Position numbers and translations under genes: made by a program. A model generated the notes under the pieces. It was not told where the DNA came from and did no database searches. It worked only from the letters and a program-made list of their open reading frames with translations. Shown in pieces: positions 7,730 to 58,728 of a stretch of 64,000 bases of DNA (within the stretch, counting starts at the first letter, position 1; each line of letters opens with the position of its first letter). The DNA comes from Candidatus Methanosuratincola subterraneus. GTDB taxonomy: Archaea > Thermoproteota > Methanomethylicia > Methanomethylicales > Methanomethylicaceae. Location of the stretch: NCBI GenBank assembly GCA_004028775.1, contig RXGA01000002.1, forward strand, positions 124,001 to 188,000, read 5' to 3'.

Positions 7730-8962
7730 TCATGCAGGCTGGCTTGCTCCGCACTCCCTGCAGAACTTTGCCACGATAGGTATGACGGCCCCACAGTTCG
7801 GGCATACTTTTGTATCTGCGCCTGAGGGCGGAGCGCTTCCGCAGCTCGGGCAGACCCTAGCATCGATAGGCATCCTCTGTCCGCAGACCATGCAGTACCG
7901 CTTCTTTTCAACGAAGGCAACTGTCGCTTGGGCGGATTGAAGTTCCTTTGACGATGCAGTCAAATTCACCTGACCCACGCGAATTGAAGATGACAGCTGG
8001 ACCCTTGCTGAGGATGCGCCTTTTGGAATGGTTACAGATTGCGGAATTGTACCGTCTGAGGCGGACAGGTGAACTTCTCTCACGACATCAGAGCTGATAG
8101 GCTTACCCTCTGAATCCACCAGCTCGACAACGACGTCTGTCGAGGAACGCCCGTCTGCAAATATCTCCTTCTTTTCAGGGATTATCCTCAGCGCTACTGG
8201 TCTAGGGGCAGGCGGCGGCTTTGGCTTCCTTCTCATCAGGAATGCGCCCGCTATCCCGAGAACAGCAACGACCGCAACAATCAAGATTACGTACTCCATG
8301 GGGAACCCGGATGGCGGGGGAGGGGCGACTACGAACTTTGCTGTGACGGTGCCAGGTCCGTTGATCGTAAGCGTTGTCACAGATGCGCTTGAGTTTTGGA
8401 CTGAGAGTGATCCAGTCGTGGTCCATCCATCAAAGTTGTACCCTGAGTTGGGTGTGGCTGAGATCACAAGAGCTGTGCCAGGCAGGTACCATCCTGAGGT
8501 GATATTCGCTGAGCCTCCTGCAGATGTGGCGTACTGCAAGTAGACCTCAGGGGAATAGTAAGCCATCATAGAGGTATTGGTTGTGATGAGTATTGTACCA
8601 CTCTGAGTCATGTTTGTTGTGAATGGCAGAAATATGCAAATTGGAGGTATCCCTGGCAAGCAACTGACAATCGTTGTTGTTTTCGAGGCATTGACAAATG
8701 CAAACCTGTAAGTCGAGTTGACCGTAACGTATTGCTGCCATGCATAAGTTGCATTTGTGCCGTTTGCCACGCTGAACTGCTTCGGCAGTTGCGAAGCAGC
8801 GACATTTGTTCCCATAAAATTGATTACGGTTCCAGTTGCGCCGCTACCTAGTCCAGAAGCATTTATCGTCACTGTTAAATTTTCAGCACGGACGGGGGAA
8901 AAGGAGATCAGCGCCAGAACAAAGATCAGCAAAAGAGGTATGGAAAAAGTTTTTTTGCGCAT
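7730..8962 (-). CDS. Membrane protein: secreted repeat domain, cytoplasmic Ig-like domain and two zinc ribbons
   Basis: A 410-residue protein. Residues 1-26 look like a signal peptide (cut near PVRA). Residues 27-215 are exported, rich in N-x-S/T sequons, and include a repeat-type domain around GYNFDGWTT. Residues 222-243 form one membrane helix followed by RRKPK, placing the rest in the cytoplasm. Residues 256-351 resemble a bacterial Ig-like (invasin-type) domain. Two CxxC-x10-CxxC zinc ribbons fill 357-374 and 387-404. Ig-like domains are normally extracellular, so the topology is odd. It is unlikely to belong to the injection system, although it lies beside it. Function unknown. Confidence 0.6.
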   Translation of the reverse strand: MRKKTFSIPLLLIFVLALISFSPVRAENLTVTINASGLGSGATGTVINFMGTNVAASQLPKQFSVANGTNATYAWQQYVTVNSTYRFAFVNASKTTTIVSCLPGIPPICIFLPFTTNMTQSGTILITTNTSMMAYYSPEVYLQYATSAGGSANITSGWYLPGTALVISATPNSGYNFDGWTTTGSLSVQNSSASVTTLTINGPGTVTAKFVVAPPPPSGFPMEYVILIVAVVAVLGIAGAFLMRRKPKPPPAPRPVALRIIPEKKEIFADGRSSTDVVVELVDSEGKPISSDVVREVHLSASDGTIPQSVTIPKGASSARVQLSSSIRVGQVNLTASSKELQSAQATVAFVEKKRYCMVCGQRMPIDARVCPSCGSAPPSGADTKVCPNCGAVIPIVAKFCRECGASQPA

Positions 8963-51492: not shown

Positions 51493-52413
51493 CTAGACGA
51501 CCCGGTTTTCGGGTTTCCTTGACTCTATCATCTCGAAGGGCTTCAGTATCCTGAGCAGGATGTCGGTCCTAGTGATTATTCCGACTGGCCTACTCTCTGG
51601 ATCGACAACGACGAGCCTGCCGATGCTGGACCGCTGCATCTTCTCCATTGCCTGGAGTATGTCCTCATCAATGCCTATGAGCACTGGTTTCCTGGTGGCA
51701 GCCTCTCGGACTGTCAGGTGCATTTTGCCCTCGGTTACGCACCTCGAGATGTCGGAACTTGTGATCATCCCCACCAGTTTGCCATCCTCAACGATCGGGG
51801 CCGCCCTTATCATCTCTTTGTAGAGCGTCTCAGCAGCTGTCCTCAGGGGGGCGTCCGCGGGGACTGAGACTATCCTCTTCGACATCACCTCGCCGACGGT
51901 GACGCGGGGTATGCTGATCAGGGTTATCACATCCAATAGGATCTCCCCATGGAGGTCGTCCCTGCCTGCGATCTTCCCCTCAATCACCATCCTTCCTGAA
52001 GGGGTCGGGCCGATCACGATCTCCTCCCCTATATTGAACCTTGAGAGATTTCCGATGACCTTCAGTATTGCCTGGCAGAAGTCTGGGCTGAAGACGCTCT
52101 TGAACAGGATGTCGGTAACCGTGACTTCAGTCCTCTCCCCTTGCTTTGTGTAGATCGGAACAGAAAGCGATCTAGGCCCCTTAGGGACGTTGAAGCTCTC
52201 GTATGCCTTGCTAGTTGGGAGGTACCCCCCTTTAGGCCCAGGAATCGCCTCAACCAGCCCGATGGCCCTAAGGACTGGCATGATGTTCCTGACCGTGCCC
52301 TCGTCCCTTCCTGTTCGTGCTGCAATCTCCTTGCTCTTCACAAGGGACCGCTTCTTGTCATAAAGCTCGAGAAGCGCAACCACTATCTCCTTTTGCGGCG
52401 CTGAGAGAGACAT
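51493..52413 (-). CDS. Winged-helix regulator with paired CBS domains
   Basis: A 306-residue protein. Residues 1-75 are a winged helix (SKEIAARTGRDEGTVRNIMPVL, GYLPTSKAYESF), 80-170 a linker domain, and 175-300 two CBS domains (VGEVMSKRIVSVPADA, VREAATRKPVLIGIDED, GRLVVVDPESRPVGIITRTDI). CBS pairs sense adenosine nucleotides or SAM. It is divergent from the CBS-fused acyl-CoA ligase with only 150 bases between their starts, and so is a good candidate to regulate it and itself. ATG 52413 is clear. Confidence 0.85.
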   Translation of the reverse strand: MSLSAPQKEIVVALLELYDKKRSLVKSKEIAARTGRDEGTVRNIMPVLRAIGLVEAIPGPKGGYLPTSKAYESFNVPKGPRSLSVPIYTKQGERTEVTVTDILFKSVFSPDFCQAILKVIGNLSRFNIGEEIVIGPTPSGRMVIEGKIAGRDDLHGEILLDVITLISIPRVTVGEVMSKRIVSVPADAPLRTAAETLYKEMIRAAPIVEDGKLVGMITSSDISRCVTEGKMHLTVREAATRKPVLIGIDEDILQAMEKMQRSSIGRLVVVDPESRPVGIITRTDILLRILKPFEMIESRKPENRVV

Positions 52414-52444: not shown

Positions 52445-52514
52445 TATAATTATAATTTTTGTTCAATATGGACCAGGGTCTAGGGTTGGCTCCATTATTA
52501 TAAATAATTATAAT
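52445..52514. promoter_or_regulatory. Divergent promoter with repeated ATAATTATAAT boxes
   Basis: The 11-base word ATAATTATAAT occurs at 52446-52456 and 52504-52514, with a near-palindromic core. The first copy overlaps the probable TATA box of the leftward regulator gene; the second lies just upstream of the CTTATAAAAA TATA-like box (about 52523-52532) of the rightward ligase gene. This layout fits an operator pair bound by the CBS regulator. It is inference from position only, and A/T-rich words recur by chance in promoters. Confidence 0.35.
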
Positions 52515-52563
52515 CATCAAACCTTATAAAAATGGCAAAAGTTGGTTATGTAGGTGGCATCGG

Positions 52564-54462
52564 GTGAGCATAGACTCGATATTCTCAAAGACCGCGAATA
52601 GGCTCAACTCCAAGGTAGCGCTGAAATGGAAGGATAGGGATTATACCTTTGGGGAGCTTGACTCGCTCTCCACCAGGTTTGCCAAGGCGCTTTCAGCATT
52701 AGGGGTCGGCAAGGGGGAAAGGGTCTGCATATTCATGCAGAATTCCCCTGAGTTCGCAATTGCCCACTTTGGGATACTGAAGTGCGGAGGCGTTACAGTC
52801 CCCCTTAATGTGATGTACAGGAAGCATGAGCTCAGGCATATGATAAATGACTCAGGGGCAGCAGCAGTCGTGACCTCGGAGGCGAACCTGCAGTTCGTTC
52901 AGGAGGTAATGAAAGATCTGAAGACAGTGAAAGCGATCATCGTTACATCCGAGAGAGCCCCTGAAGGCATCAGGCCTTTTTACAAGATCTTGGAGGGTTT
53001 CGACGATACCCCGATACCCAGCATGAATGCCGAGGAAGACCTCGCGGTGATATGCTACACGTCCGGAACCACTGGCCTCTCCAAAGGGGCAATGCTCACG
53101 CACAGGAATTTCCTCTCAAACATAGGCACGCTTGCTTCGATCTGGGAGCTCAATGAAGGCGACAAGGTGCTCATGGCCCTCCCGATGTTTCACATCCACG
53201 GGTTAGGGATAGTCATTCACGGAATGGCTTACTGCGGCTACACCGTCCTCCTCCACGAGAGGTTTGACGCGGCGAAGGTGCTTGAAGACATCAGGCGGGA
53301 GAGGTGCACGGTCTTCATGGGAGTCCCGACCATGTACATCAAGCTCCTCGAGGAGAAGAGCACATCCCATGACGTTTCTTCGGTCAGGTTGTGGACGGTA
53401 GGATCTGCACCGATGCCAGTTGAGGCTTTCAACAAGTTCAAGGAGAAGTTTGGAGTTGAGATACTCGAGCGATATGGCATGACCGAGACTGCCCCTGTAA
53501 TAACATCAAACCCTTACAGGGGGCTCAGGAAGCCCGGGTCGGTCGGACCGCCGATTCCCGGGGTGGAGATTGCGATATTAGACGACGACGGGAGGACACT
53601 ACCGCCTGGCGAGGTCGGGGAGATTGCGGTAAGGGGTCCCAATGTGATGAAGGGATACTGGAACCGCCCGGTGGAGACAGAGGAGGCTTTCTCCGGCGGA
53701 TGGTTCCACACGGGGGATCTCGGCAAATTGGACGAGGATGGTTATCTAACCATCGTGGGCAGGAAGAAGGAGATGATAATCGCCAGCGGCTTCAAGGTCT
53801 TCCCGAGGGAGGTAGAGGAGGTAATACACCAGTACCCGAAGGTAAAGGAGGTGGCTGTCGTCGGGATACCAGATCCGGTGAGGGGCGAGAACGTTAAGGC
53901 TTTCGTGGTACTCAAGGATGGTGAGAATGCAACCGTCGAGGAGATCGAGGAGCACTGCAGGAGGAATTTGGCGGCTTTCAAGGTCCCGAGGATCTTTGAA
54001 TTCGTCGAGGCGATACCAAGGACCGCCAGCGGCAAGGCGTTGAATAGGATGCTTGCAAAGGTCAAGGTCAAAGATCTGATGGAGAAGTCCGTGAAGAGCA
54101 TCGACAGGAGAACTTCGGCCTACGAGGCAGCAAAGTACATGAAAGATGCCAACGTTGGAAGCCTTATCGTGACCGATGGTGAGGTTCCGATCGGAATCGT
54201 AACCCTCCGCGACATACTCTACAAGGTAATCTCGATAGGCAGTCTTGGCAAGGACGTGTCGCTCAGCAGCATAATGTCCACACCGCTGGTCACGGTAGAT
54301 GCCGAGGAGGACATTGCAAAGGCAGCGGCGATAATGCGGCAGTGGGGCGTCTGGAGGCTGCCTGTCAAAAACGGGAATGGGCAGCTGGTAGGGGTCCTGA
54401 GCGGGACGGACATATTCAGGGCATTTGCAGGGAGGAAGATGGAGGTCCCTACAAGCTTTTAG
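52564..54462 (+). CDS. Fatty-acid/acyl-CoA ligase fused to C-terminal CBS domain pair
   Basis: A 632-residue protein. Residues 1-495 are an AMP-forming acyl-CoA ligase with CYTSGTTGLSKGAM (A3), YGMTETAPV (A5), WFHTGDLGKLDEDGYL (A7), GRKKEMIIASGFKVFPREVE (A8) and the A10 lysine in PRTASGKALNR. Residues 500-632 are two CBS domains (VKDLMEKSVKSIDRRTSAYE; LSSIMSTPLVTVDAEEDIA). The enzyme makes acyl-CoA with AMP as by-product, while CBS pairs bind AMP/ATP, so direct feedback control is plausible. GTG 52564 starts it. The fusion is unusual. Confidence 0.9.
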   Translation: MSIDSIFSKTANRLNSKVALKWKDRDYTFGELDSLSTRFAKALSALGVGKGERVCIFMQNSPEFAIAHFGILKCGGVTVPLNVMYRKHELRHMINDSGAAAVVTSEANLQFVQEVMKDLKTVKAIIVTSERAPEGIRPFYKILEGFDDTPIPSMNAEEDLAVICYTSGTTGLSKGAMLTHRNFLSNIGTLASIWELNEGDKVLMALPMFHIHGLGIVIHGMAYCGYTVLLHERFDAAKVLEDIRRERCTVFMGVPTMYIKLLEEKSTSHDVSSVRLWTVGSAPMPVEAFNKFKEKFGVEILERYGMTETAPVITSNPYRGLRKPGSVGPPIPGVEIAILDDDGRTLPPGEVGEIAVRGPNVMKGYWNRPVETEEAFSGGWFHTGDLGKLDEDGYLTIVGRKKEMIIASGFKVFPREVEEVIHQYPKVKEVAVVGIPDPVRGENVKAFVVLKDGENATVEEIEEHCRRNLAAFKVPRIFEFVEAIPRTASGKALNRMLAKVKVKDLMEKSVKSIDRRTSAYEAAKYMKDANVGSLIVTDGEVPIGIVTLRDILYKVISIGSLGKDVSLSSIMSTPLVTVDAEEDIAKAAAIMRQWGVWRLPVKNGNGQLVGVLSGTDIFRAFAGRKMEVPTSF

Positions 54463-55882: not shown

Positions 55883-57328
55883 TTAGGCTTGTTTTGGTCC
55901 TGTGAACCTGCTGACCAGGTAGGTAACAATCAAAGATGCGGCTACGCCTGGGAAGAACGGGTAGATTGGGGTCGCAGGAGGGGCAAGGAATAAGTACCAT
56001 AGCTGCGCCGAGGCGAAGCCGGCAACCATGCCAGCCAAGGCCCCGTATTTGTTCGCCCTTCTGTAGAATAGCGCCATGACTAGGGGTCCCATGAAAGAGC
56101 TCGAGAGAACCTGCCAGGTGTACGCAGTCAGCTGGTAAATCAGACCAGGCGGGTAGATCGCGATGATGCAGCAGCCCAAGCTGAGGATCAGCGAAATTAA
56201 CTTTGTCATCCTCAGCTGAGTCTTGTCAGACATCATCTTTGAGGCAGGCCTCACAAGGTCCCTAGTGAGCGTCCCGGCTGTCATGTGGATCAGTGCATCG
56301 ATCGTGGAGGTCGCCGCGCACATTATCCCCGCAAGGAAAAGCACGGACAGCCAAGGAGGGAATGCAGTCTTAACAAAGAGGGGCACTATAAGGTCGTCCT
56401 TCAAGGTCATGACATCAATCCCGAATTTGGCAAGGATGGGCCTAGAGAGGGCGCCGTAGGAGTAGGCAGCAAGGGGGAATAGCAGCGACCCGAATGTGGC
56501 TATCAGGAGGGCGCGCTTTATGTTCATCCGGCTGGAGATTGTGGCGTACCTCAGCACCATCTGCGGCTGGGCGAGCATCCCAAAACCCATGACAGCAGTG
56601 AGGCCGATTATCACGCTCCAAGTGTTTGTGCCGAAGGCAGGGAAAGTGACGCTTCGAATGTCAATCGCTGCCATGGTTTCATGTGCCTGCACGAAGCCTC
56701 CGAGCAGCGAGTATGAGAAGACCCACACAGCCACTACAGCTATGGTCATCACAATGCCCTGGATGAACTCGGCGAGTGTGGCTGAAAAGAGACCGCCACT
56801 GAAAACATAGACGGCTATGATAGCGCCAGCTACGAGGACGCCCATCCAGAAGGGGGTGCCAACAATTGTCGAGATGGCAGATCCCATTGCGATGAAAGCA
56901 GACACTGTGTAAGGGATTATGAAGATCGCTATGATCAGGGCTGAGGCATAGCGGAGAGTCTTGCTGCCGTACCTGAGCGACAGGAACTCCGAGAATGTCA
57001 TTGCATTGAGCTCCCTGAATGCCTTGGAAAGCCTCGGCGCGAGGACTGCAAAAGCGATCACAGCCGAGACGGCGTGCCACATGCCGATCACAGTCGCGCT
57101 CATACCCCACTTGCTAGCTGAGCCTGCGAACCCTATCATCAGGACGGCGCTGAAGTAAGTGGCAAAGAAGGCGACGCCCATTACGACCCCGCCTATCTTG
57201 AACCCGCCCACGTACCAGTCGCTTATGCTGCTAACCTTTTTCTTGCCAAGCCAGCCTACTGCCGCCAATGCAACCATGTAGAACGCAATGACTACAATGT
57301 ACAAAGCGCTGTCCATGAGGTCACTCAT
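55883..57328 (-). CDS. Sodium:solute symporter family transporter
   Basis: A 481-residue polytopic transporter with about 13 helices. Family landmarks are SISDWYVGGFKIGG near the start, MTFSEFLSLRYGSKTLRY, GGLFSATLAEFIQGIVM and LAGIMCAATSTIDALI. Such carriers take up organic acids or amino acids with Na+. ATG 57328 is chosen because AGGAGGG lies six bases upstream; an ATG six bases earlier is too close. It overlaps the preceding small membrane gene by 8 bases. Operon with phenylacetate-CoA-ligase-type enzyme suggests an aromatic or aryl-acid substrate. Confidence 0.88.
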   Translation of the reverse strand: MSDLMDSALYIVVIAFYMVALAAVGWLGKKKVSSISDWYVGGFKIGGVVMGVAFFATYFSAVLMIGFAGSASKWGMSATVIGMWHAVSAVIAFAVLAPRLSKAFRELNAMTFSEFLSLRYGSKTLRYASALIIAIFIIPYTVSAFIAMGSAISTIVGTPFWMGVLVAGAIIAVYVFSGGLFSATLAEFIQGIVMTIAVVAVWVFSYSLLGGFVQAHETMAAIDIRSVTFPAFGTNTWSVIIGLTAVMGFGMLAQPQMVLRYATISSRMNIKRALLIATFGSLLFPLAAYSYGALSRPILAKFGIDVMTLKDDLIVPLFVKTAFPPWLSVLFLAGIMCAATSTIDALIHMTAGTLTRDLVRPASKMMSDKTQLRMTKLISLILSLGCCIIAIYPPGLIYQLTAYTWQVLSSSFMGPLVMALFYRRANKYGALAGMVAGFASAQLWYLFLAPPATPIYPFFPGVAASLIVTYLVSRFTGPKQA

Positions 57329-57476
57329 CGGCATCCCTCCTTGATCTTGCCCATATCACGAACGCCAGCGCAAGCCCCAAGAAGCCAGGGACCCACCCGC
57401 CAAGAATAATCCACCAGTCGATCCCTATCGGGCTCAGGTTGGAGTACTGGGATACCAATCCCAACATCTCGATCAT
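57321..57476 (-). CDS. 51-residue membrane peptide of symporter operon
   Basis: A 51-residue frame between the PaaK-like gene (stop ends at 57478) and the symporter. It starts 1 base after the former and ends overlapping the latter, so spacing strongly supports translation. It has one hydrophobic helix (DWWIILGGWVPGFLGLALAF) and a basic-acidic tail. Small one-helix partners are common beside such symporters in bacteria and may aid assembly or stability. ATG 57476 or 57467 could be used. Confidence 0.72.
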   Translation of the reverse strand: MIEMLGLVSQYSNLSPIGIDWWIILGGWVPGFLGLALAFVIWARSRRDADE

Positions 57477-57477
57477 T

Positions 57478-58728
57478 TCAGAGCCTCCTCATGTCAATTA
57501 CCCGTTTCGCCTTCCCTTCGCTCCTGGGTATGGATCCGGGCGGGCAGATCTCTACATTCGAGCGCAGCAGAGTTGCATCCTTAATCTCCTCGAAGATCAA
57601 AGACCTCAACCTGTTTACGGCTGCCTGGTCCGAAATGATACCGTTCTTAACCTCCAGCTTTACGGTTATGTCGTCGACACCGCTGAGCAAGATCTGGAAG
57701 TTCCCGTTTGACTCGGGGTGGGAGGCGATTATCTTTTCGATTGTGGACGGGTAAATGCCTATGCCCCTGATCTTCACCATGTCGTCTATCCTGCCCCGCA
57801 TCCACTCTATCCTCCGGTGTGTCCTCCCGCATTCGCAGATCCCGTCTATTATGCGGGTTAGATCCCCAGTCCTGTAACGGAGGATTGGCATGGCTTCCCT
57901 GTCCAGAGGGGTGATCACGAGCTCGCCCTCCTCCTCTTTCTCAAGGGGCTCACCTGTGCTCGGGTCAATCACTTCGATGAGGAACCGGTCCTCCCAGACG
58001 TGGAGACCTGATTTGAACGGGCACTCGATAGCGACCCCTGGTCCCCCGACCTCGGCAAGTCCGTAGTTGTTGAAGGCACCTATGTTGAGGGACCCCTCGA
58101 TCTTATTCCGCATCTCTTTCGTCCATGGCTCTGCACCAAGGATGCCGATGCGTATCTTCAGGGAATCCCTGAGGCCGTTGGACGCCTCGAGCATCTCGAT
58201 CATCCTCAGGGCGAATGAAGGTATTGCATGGAATACGGTGACCCCGAAGTCAGCCATGACCTCAAGCTGCTTCTCTGGGTTTGCAGATCCGAGCGGGACC
58301 ACAGTCAGCCCCAGCTTCTCAGCCCCTTGGATCAGCCCTAGCCCCCCGGTGAAGAAGCCTTGGGAGGTTGTGTTCTGGAATACGTCGCCGCGCCGGGCGC
58401 CGGCACATGCAAGGCCCCTTGCCATCAACTCTGACCATGTTTCCAGATCCTTCTTCGTGTAGAAAGTCGTCACTGGCTTGTTGGTGCTGCCTGAAGAAGT
58501 GTGTATCCTGACGACCCGTTCTAGCGGCACCGCAAGGGCTCCATAGGGGAAGGCATCCACAAGGTCCTTCTTTGTTGTAAACGGCAGCTTTGCAACATCG
58601 CTGAGGTCAGAGATCTCGCCTATGCGCTTTCCCCTCATCCGCTCCCTTAGGAAAGGTATCCTTTCGGCCCTTTTCACAGCTGCCTTCAGTTTCTTTTTTT
58701 GCAGTTTCTCTATCTCTTCTCTTCCCAT
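57478..58728 (-). CDS. Phenylacetate-CoA ligase family (PaaK-like) enzyme
   Basis: A 416-residue adenylate-forming ligase of the PaaK type. Motifs are IHTSSGSTNKPVTTFYT (AMP-binding), NNYGLAEVGGPG, YRTGDLTRI and RSEGKAKRV with the C-terminal lysine. PaaK activates aryl-acetic or related acids with CoA. ATG 58728 opens MGREEIEKLQKKK. It is first of the three-gene set ending with the symporter, so uptake and CoA activation of one acid are probably linked. Other catabolic genes for aromatics are not in the window. Confidence 0.88.
   Translation of the reverse strand: MGREEIEKLQKKKLKAAVKRAERIPFLRERMRGKRIGEISDLSDVAKLPFTTKKDLVDAFPYGALAVPLERVVRIHTSSGSTNKPVTTFYTKKDLETWSELMARGLACAGARRGDVFQNTTSQGFFTGGLGLIQGAEKLGLTVVPLGSANPEKQLEVMADFGVTVFHAIPSFALRMIEMLEASNGLRDSLKIRIGILGAEPWTKEMRNKIEGSLNIGAFNNYGLAEVGGPGVAIECPFKSGLHVWEDRFLIEVIDPSTGEPLEKEEEGELVITPLDREAMPILRYRTGDLTRIIDGICECGRTHRRIEWMRGRIDDMVKIRGIGIYPSTIEKIIASHPESNGNFQILLSGVDDITVKLEVKNGIISDQAAVNRLRSLIFEEIKDATLLRSNVEICPPGSIPRSEGKAKRVIDMRRL

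Follow-up and report, generated by a model that had tools for sequence, protein, structure and literature searches.

A single open reading frame at positions 52,564–54,462 (+ strand) of the window, the 64,000-nucleotide stretch of DNA analysed here, encodes a 632-residue AMP-forming acyl-CoA ligase with a pair of CBS domains at its C-terminus. The fusion itself is nearly certain. Both parts, the ligase and the CBS pair, are known, and together they make a new combination that is conserved. A model is proposed in which the ligase activates a carboxylate and is gated in cis by the CBS pair, which would bind adenine nucleotides, while the gene belongs to a carboxylate-uptake regulon probably run by the product of the divergent neighbouring gene (HTH-CBS). 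The chances that this model is right are about even; its ligand, substrate, gating and DNA-binding protein are all inferred.

The reading frame has a GTG start and no internal stops. The N-terminal AMP-binding domain (residues 7–366, positions 52,582–53,661, + strand; Pfam E = 4.5e-108) contains the P-loop YTSGTTGLSKGA and the sequence ERYGMTET. It is followed by the AMP-binding_C lid domain (residues 416–491, positions 53,809–54,036, + strand; Pfam E = 2e-23). The CBS pair occupies residues about 501–625 (positions 54,064–54,438, + strand; two stretches, Pfam E = 2.4e-25) and starts about 10 residues past Lys491, which lies in an SGK motif and is presumably the catalytic lysine of the lid. 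All three domain calls are above the Pfam curated cut-offs, and with the intact reading frame they bear out the initial annotation of a complete ligase and two CBS domains in one chain. The P-loop, GMTE, TGD and GRxKE motifs and the lysine of SGK, which we take to have their usual roles in such ligases, are all kept, and domains and motifs place the protein in the FadD-like group of the ANL superfamily. It is a real FadD-like AMP-forming acyl-CoA ligase of Methanosuratincola-type archaea, with that activity predicted from sequence, and the two-CBS module is situated directly behind the mobile lid.

The ligase part falls within the broad PRK06187 subfamily (NCBIfam NF004837; 525.9 bits against a cut-off of 476). 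It shares the full ligase architecture and motifs of these FadD-like enzymes and differs from them by the added C-terminal CBS pair. Malonyl-CoA synthase (NF005702, PRK07514) was rejected as an assignment, the score of 477.8 bits being below the cut-off of 558. An AlphaFold2 model calculated from 63 rows (mean pLDDT 85, pTM 0.73), which superseded a shallower model from 15 rows (pLDDT 67), has a ligase fold followed by the CBS pair. The CBS blocks are moderately confident (about 64–84) and the C-terminal tail is low. A structure search, which compared mainly the ligase part, gave MatB (4fuq, 4fut) and FadD13 (3r44) as the nearest solved folds, with Z about 54. Only two AMP-binding_C ligases are encoded in the genome, namely the fused protein and a 678-residue acetyl-CoA synthetase. 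The window also contains a PaaK-type CoA ligase near the fused gene. It adjoins a sodium:solute symporter, the two lying at positions 55,883–58,728, and this pairing is kept in several relatives.

Each CBS repeat contains the sequence G-x-x-(T/S)-x-x-D, which we take to be the signature for ribose binding in CBS domains that bind nucleotides. It reads GIVTLRD in the first repeat (residues 544–550, positions 54,193–54,213, + strand) and GVLSGTD in the second (residues 610–616, positions 54,391–54,411, + strand), and its positions are invariant in all 15 intact copies. Two domains with the signature in both repeats identify the module as a CBS pair (Bateman module). The nearest solved sequences to it are ST2348 (2ef7, E = 3.4e-18), MJ1225 and other proteins with CBS domains; AcuB comes lower in the same table. 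ST2348, the best match, belongs to the standalone archaeal two-CBS proteins, which, unlike the pair described here, are unattached to an enzyme. Because the signatures are invariant and the solved relatives include archaeal CBS proteins and AcuB, direct control of the ligase by AMP or the energy state, as put forward in the initial annotation, is plausible.

Gating of the ligase by its CBS pair is likewise plausible, by analogy to AcuB. According to a report on the Bacilli protein, AcuB binds AMP, ADP and ATP; when bound to AMP, it acts by way of AcuC to hold acetyl-CoA synthetase in an inactive state, and acsA is divergent to the acu operon (PMC13121692). A CBS sensor of adenine nucleotides thus governs an AMP-forming CoA synthetase (AcsA), which gives a precedent in trans for the gating proposed here. 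However, AcuB contains an ACT domain and depends on the deacetylase AcuC for its effect, whereas the sensor described here would act in cis and on another ligase. The Pfam scan of the fused protein found no ACT domain, and the chain stops at the CBS pair. The loci differ as well, since the gene divergent to the fused ligase encodes an HTH-CBS protein. In the proposed mechanism, the CBS pair would most likely bind an adenine nucleotide (AMP or ADP versus ATP). The bound nucleotide would act through the short linker, favouring or hindering the movement of the lid between the adenylation and thioester-forming states. High AMP would slow the activation of the acid, a reaction that costs the equivalent of two ATP.

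Alternatively, the pair might sense SAM, Ap4A, or an acyl-CoA or acyl-adenylate product, so that it would mediate product feedback and not respond to energy charge. CBS domains in general bind varied adenosyl ligands, and MJ0100, which presumably binds SAM or MTA, is among the solved relatives of the fused pair. AcuB itself is reported to bind Ap4A (PMC13039410). Nevertheless, CBS signatures do not tell ligands apart and favour none of them. Sensing of another ligand is unlikely, although it carries the most weight among the alternatives to an adenine-nucleotide sensor linked to an HTH-CBS regulon.

Beyond what the initial annotation described, the locus has a divergent HTH-CBS regulator and a palindrome common to the genes for the regulator, the fused ligase and acetyl-CoA synthetase (acsA). 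The regulator gene (positions 51,493–52,413, − strand) encodes 306 residues with an HTH domain (HrcA_DNA-bdg, Pfam) and a CBS pair, and the protein is the proposed binder of the palindrome. It has the same domains as other HTH-CBS regulators; here it is paired with a CBS-bearing enzyme and a palindrome that also occurs at acsA. The 150 bp between the two divergent genes contain two copies of the palindrome, each with one mismatch to the idealised 14-mer ATAATTATAATTAT, which is a perfect palindrome. The first copy (positions 52,446–52,459) is on the regulator side and the second (positions 52,504–52,517) is 60 nt before the ligase start. Between the second copy and the start is CTTATAAAA (positions 52,523–52,531, + strand), which we take to be a TATA-like box. 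The 11-mer ATAATTATAAT is repeated in this region, where both of its occurrences in the whole 1.51-Mb genome are found. When one mismatch is allowed, the window has five overlapping matches to it, all intergenic, compared with 0.28 in shuffled windows.

Among the 15 other genomes fetched, 13 have the two genes side by side. The regulator gene of G019 is on another contig, and in G009 the genes are split by an insertion. This insertion (L138, 2300–7998) is about 5.7 kb long and contains a transporter-like ORF and, just upstream of the fused ligase, a standalone CBS-pair gene whose product shares 43% identity with the fused CBS pair. The separated genes of G009 each have their own exact palindrome, and there are no other exact copies in that genome. 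Within 100 nt upstream of the regulator gene, the palindrome (up to two mismatches) was found in 18 of 21 genomes, compared with a mean of 0.86 and a maximum of 4 in shuffles; at this setting, ten further gene families from these loci gave one match altogether. In G012 and G016, which lack the fused ligase, the site at the regulator gene has three mismatches. The intergenic region of G018 has no palindrome and contains CTGTCTCTTATACAC (L133, upstream of the regulator gene), which we take to be a sequencing-library adaptor, so that this region is probably an assembly artefact. The locus counts leave out G020, a genome that is 59% complete.

Upstream of the fused ligase, the palindrome (up to one mismatch) is present in 14 of 16 genomes, in 13 of them at 59–64 nt from the start. 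The fourteenth match, at 91 nt in G002, is the regulator-side copy, the ligase-side copy having been lost. In G008, an exception, the site has two mismatches and is 171 nt away. The regulator gene and its palindrome persist without the ligase in G001, G013, G017 and G022, showing that the ligase is not the sole reason for the regulator to exist.

Sites with up to one mismatch number only 2–4 per genome in the genera g1 and g3–g5. The AT-rich genomes G012 and G013 show no excess of the motif over a reversed control (6 versus 27 and 18 versus 33 sites, respectively). The surroundings of 14 extra sites with up to one mismatch, which included one of the 18 sites of G013 and none of the six of G012, were examined. 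Four of these are before acsA (G001, G002, G009 and G022), three are at an ActP-like operon for a DUF4212 protein, a symporter and a CBS protein (G001, G004 and G005), one is before an aliphatic amidase gene adjoining a urea transporter (G010), and six are at genes without an obvious link. In L257 (2–2983) and L261 (3048–6013) the ActP-like operon, with DUF4212 and a VC_2705 family symporter, ends in another CBS protein.

Since these extra sites had been picked by the motif, the acsA loci were gathered again by protein similarity, with the motif unused, and 300 nt upstream were searched with up to two mismatches. The palindrome was found before acsA in 14 of 15 genomes (shuffles: mean 0.8, maximum 4), a count that leaves out G005, where acsA is partial and has no start. 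When the AT-rich genera g6 and g7 and genome G028 were removed, the result was 10 of 10 (shuffles: mean 0.16, maximum 3). G028 has no site in the 300 nt upstream of its acsA at this tolerance. The acsA gene of the window's own genome has two overlapping sites, each with two mismatches. It is thus likely that the regulator, the fused ligase and acsA have the palindrome in common. The AcsA proteins of G006, G000 and G003 (L271, L272 and L273) are 100% identical, whereas their fused ligases differ by 7–10% from that of the window; the identity of AcsA in the three genomes points to recent exchange or shared contamination.

The palindrome is most constant upstream of the regulator gene itself, the outgroup G022 included, and for this reason the HTH-CBS protein is probably its binding protein. 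The direction of control is likewise inferred. The motif is AT-rich and near start codons, binding by HTH-CBS is putative, and 6 of the 14 extra sites precede genes of unrelated function. The palindrome might therefore be bound by a different regulator, or be an unusual core promoter element, and the transcriptional layer would then be misassigned. However, the near absence of the motif from the ten other gene families at the same loci, its rarity in g1 and g3–g5 and its constancy at the regulator gene speak against this possibility, which is unlikely and slightly less probable than a different ligand for the CBS pair.

With HTH-CBS as the binder, transcription would constitute a second layer of control, in which the protein binds the 14-bp palindrome at its own gene and at those for acetyl-CoA synthetase and the fused ligase. 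The ActP-like symporter operon or the aliphatic amidase also has the palindrome in a few genomes. This set of genes suggests that the substrate of the ligase is probably a carboxylic acid which the cell imports for use in biosynthesis. The carbon sources of M. petrocarbonis are given as acetate, CO2 and yeast extract, with acetate not used for energy, in its description (PMC12244365). Acid activation in that organism is therefore probably biosynthetic and costs ATP.

The fused protein is intact and of full length in 15 of 61 genomes, including the window's own, and the 14 other copies are 68–93% identical to that of the window. Invariant residues among the 15 number 180 of 415 in the N-domain, 43 of 76 in the lid, 39 of 62 in the first CBS domain and 32 of 63 in the second. 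The dN/dS of the CBS part is 0.02–0.05 between the window copy and five same-genus copies, and this part is under strong purifying selection. CBS pairs commonly dimerise, and a pair that served only for oligomerisation or stability in a thermophile would leave the activity unregulated. Growth of the cultured species at 35–65 °C, as stated in its description (PMC12244365), is in keeping with such a role. The invariance of both nucleotide signatures in all 15 copies would be needless for a purely structural part, and a purely structural role is considered improbable, more so than a different ligand or a different binder of the palindrome.

A search of 398 Thermoproteota genomes was carried out with a profile of the lid and CBS pair. 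It found 16 genomes matching both parts (511–522 bits, one copy, that of G002, being frame-broken); the next best among the matches listed scored 148 bits and below, over the lid only. All 16 genomes, among the matches listed, are in the window's own family, f1, of which 22 genomes were searched. In bacteria, searches at E ≤ 1e-48 found the fusion in none of 895 genomes across three phyla, and because they were run without a positive control they exclude close fusions only. The phyla of the Sedimenticola locus (0 of 398 genomes) and of the Chloroflexi locus (0 of 251) gave no match at this threshold, and that of the Nonomuraea locus gave one in 246 genomes, over the lid only. Lid-only matches were also obtained in 18 further genomes behind named loci. 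The surroundings of 16 ligases picked for a long frame or a high score contained 17 ligase ORFs, of which 15 have no CBS and stop no more than about 15 residues past the ligase domain; the remaining two were left out, L218 being masked beyond the match and L230 matching residues 29–235 only. The fusion was thus found in one archaeal family only, among the matches listed, in a sample of Thermoproteota and three bacterial phyla that lies outside Euryarchaeota. No description of an AMP-forming ligase–CBS fusion was recognised in searches of the PMC literature, in agreement with the earlier remark that such a fusion is rarely noted.

In a ligase-domain tree of 60 rows, made by a quick method with SH-aLRT support only, the 15 fused copies form one branch (SH-aLRT 99), the sister of which is an unfused Nitrososphaerota ligase. 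The fused clade has a single origin. Derivation of the fused CBS pair from the adjoining regulator gene is not supported, as the two are only 27% identical, compared with 39% (E = 3e-28) to a standalone 142-residue CBS protein of the same genome. The gene is dispensable, because it is absent from G001, a member of the same genus, and from G012, G013, G016 and G017 (genera g6 and g7), and is broken in G002 by a frame change within the ligase part. Where it is absent, the flanking genes for HTH-CBS and a GPN-loop GTPase are still neighbours. In L166 (G001, 7748–8001), and also in L167–L170, the GTPase gene directly adjoins the regulator gene, whereas in the others the fused ligase is between them. 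The gene split by the frame change in G002 (L139, 8600–8820) also lacks the TATA-like box and the palindrome copy on its side, but dN/dS is still low. The broken copy represents either a recent loss or an assembly error. There is almost no doubt that the fusion is not itself an error of frame or assembly, named in the initial annotation as a refutation: standalone CBS-pair genes do exist, one of them just upstream of the fused ligase in G009, but the same fusion in one frame in 14 further genomes excludes this explanation.

AMP-forming ligases produce AMP, and lysine acylation is known to control them. A nucleotide sensor built into the enzyme, if true, would be a simpler route of control, operating in cis. 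With the palindrome, the regulon of an archaeal HTH-CBS regulator can be put as a concrete hypothesis, and the genus has a cultured acetate-assimilating species, strain LWZ-6, according to its description (PMC12244365). The regulator, the enzyme and, in some genomes, the transporter operon each have a putative CBS sensor. It is a tentative suggestion, less secure than the model of a gated ligase in an uptake regulon, that these sensors, together with energy gating in cis on the rotating lid, may act as a switch at several levels, by which a methyl-reducing methanogen among the archaea would adjust carbon assimilation to its energy charge.
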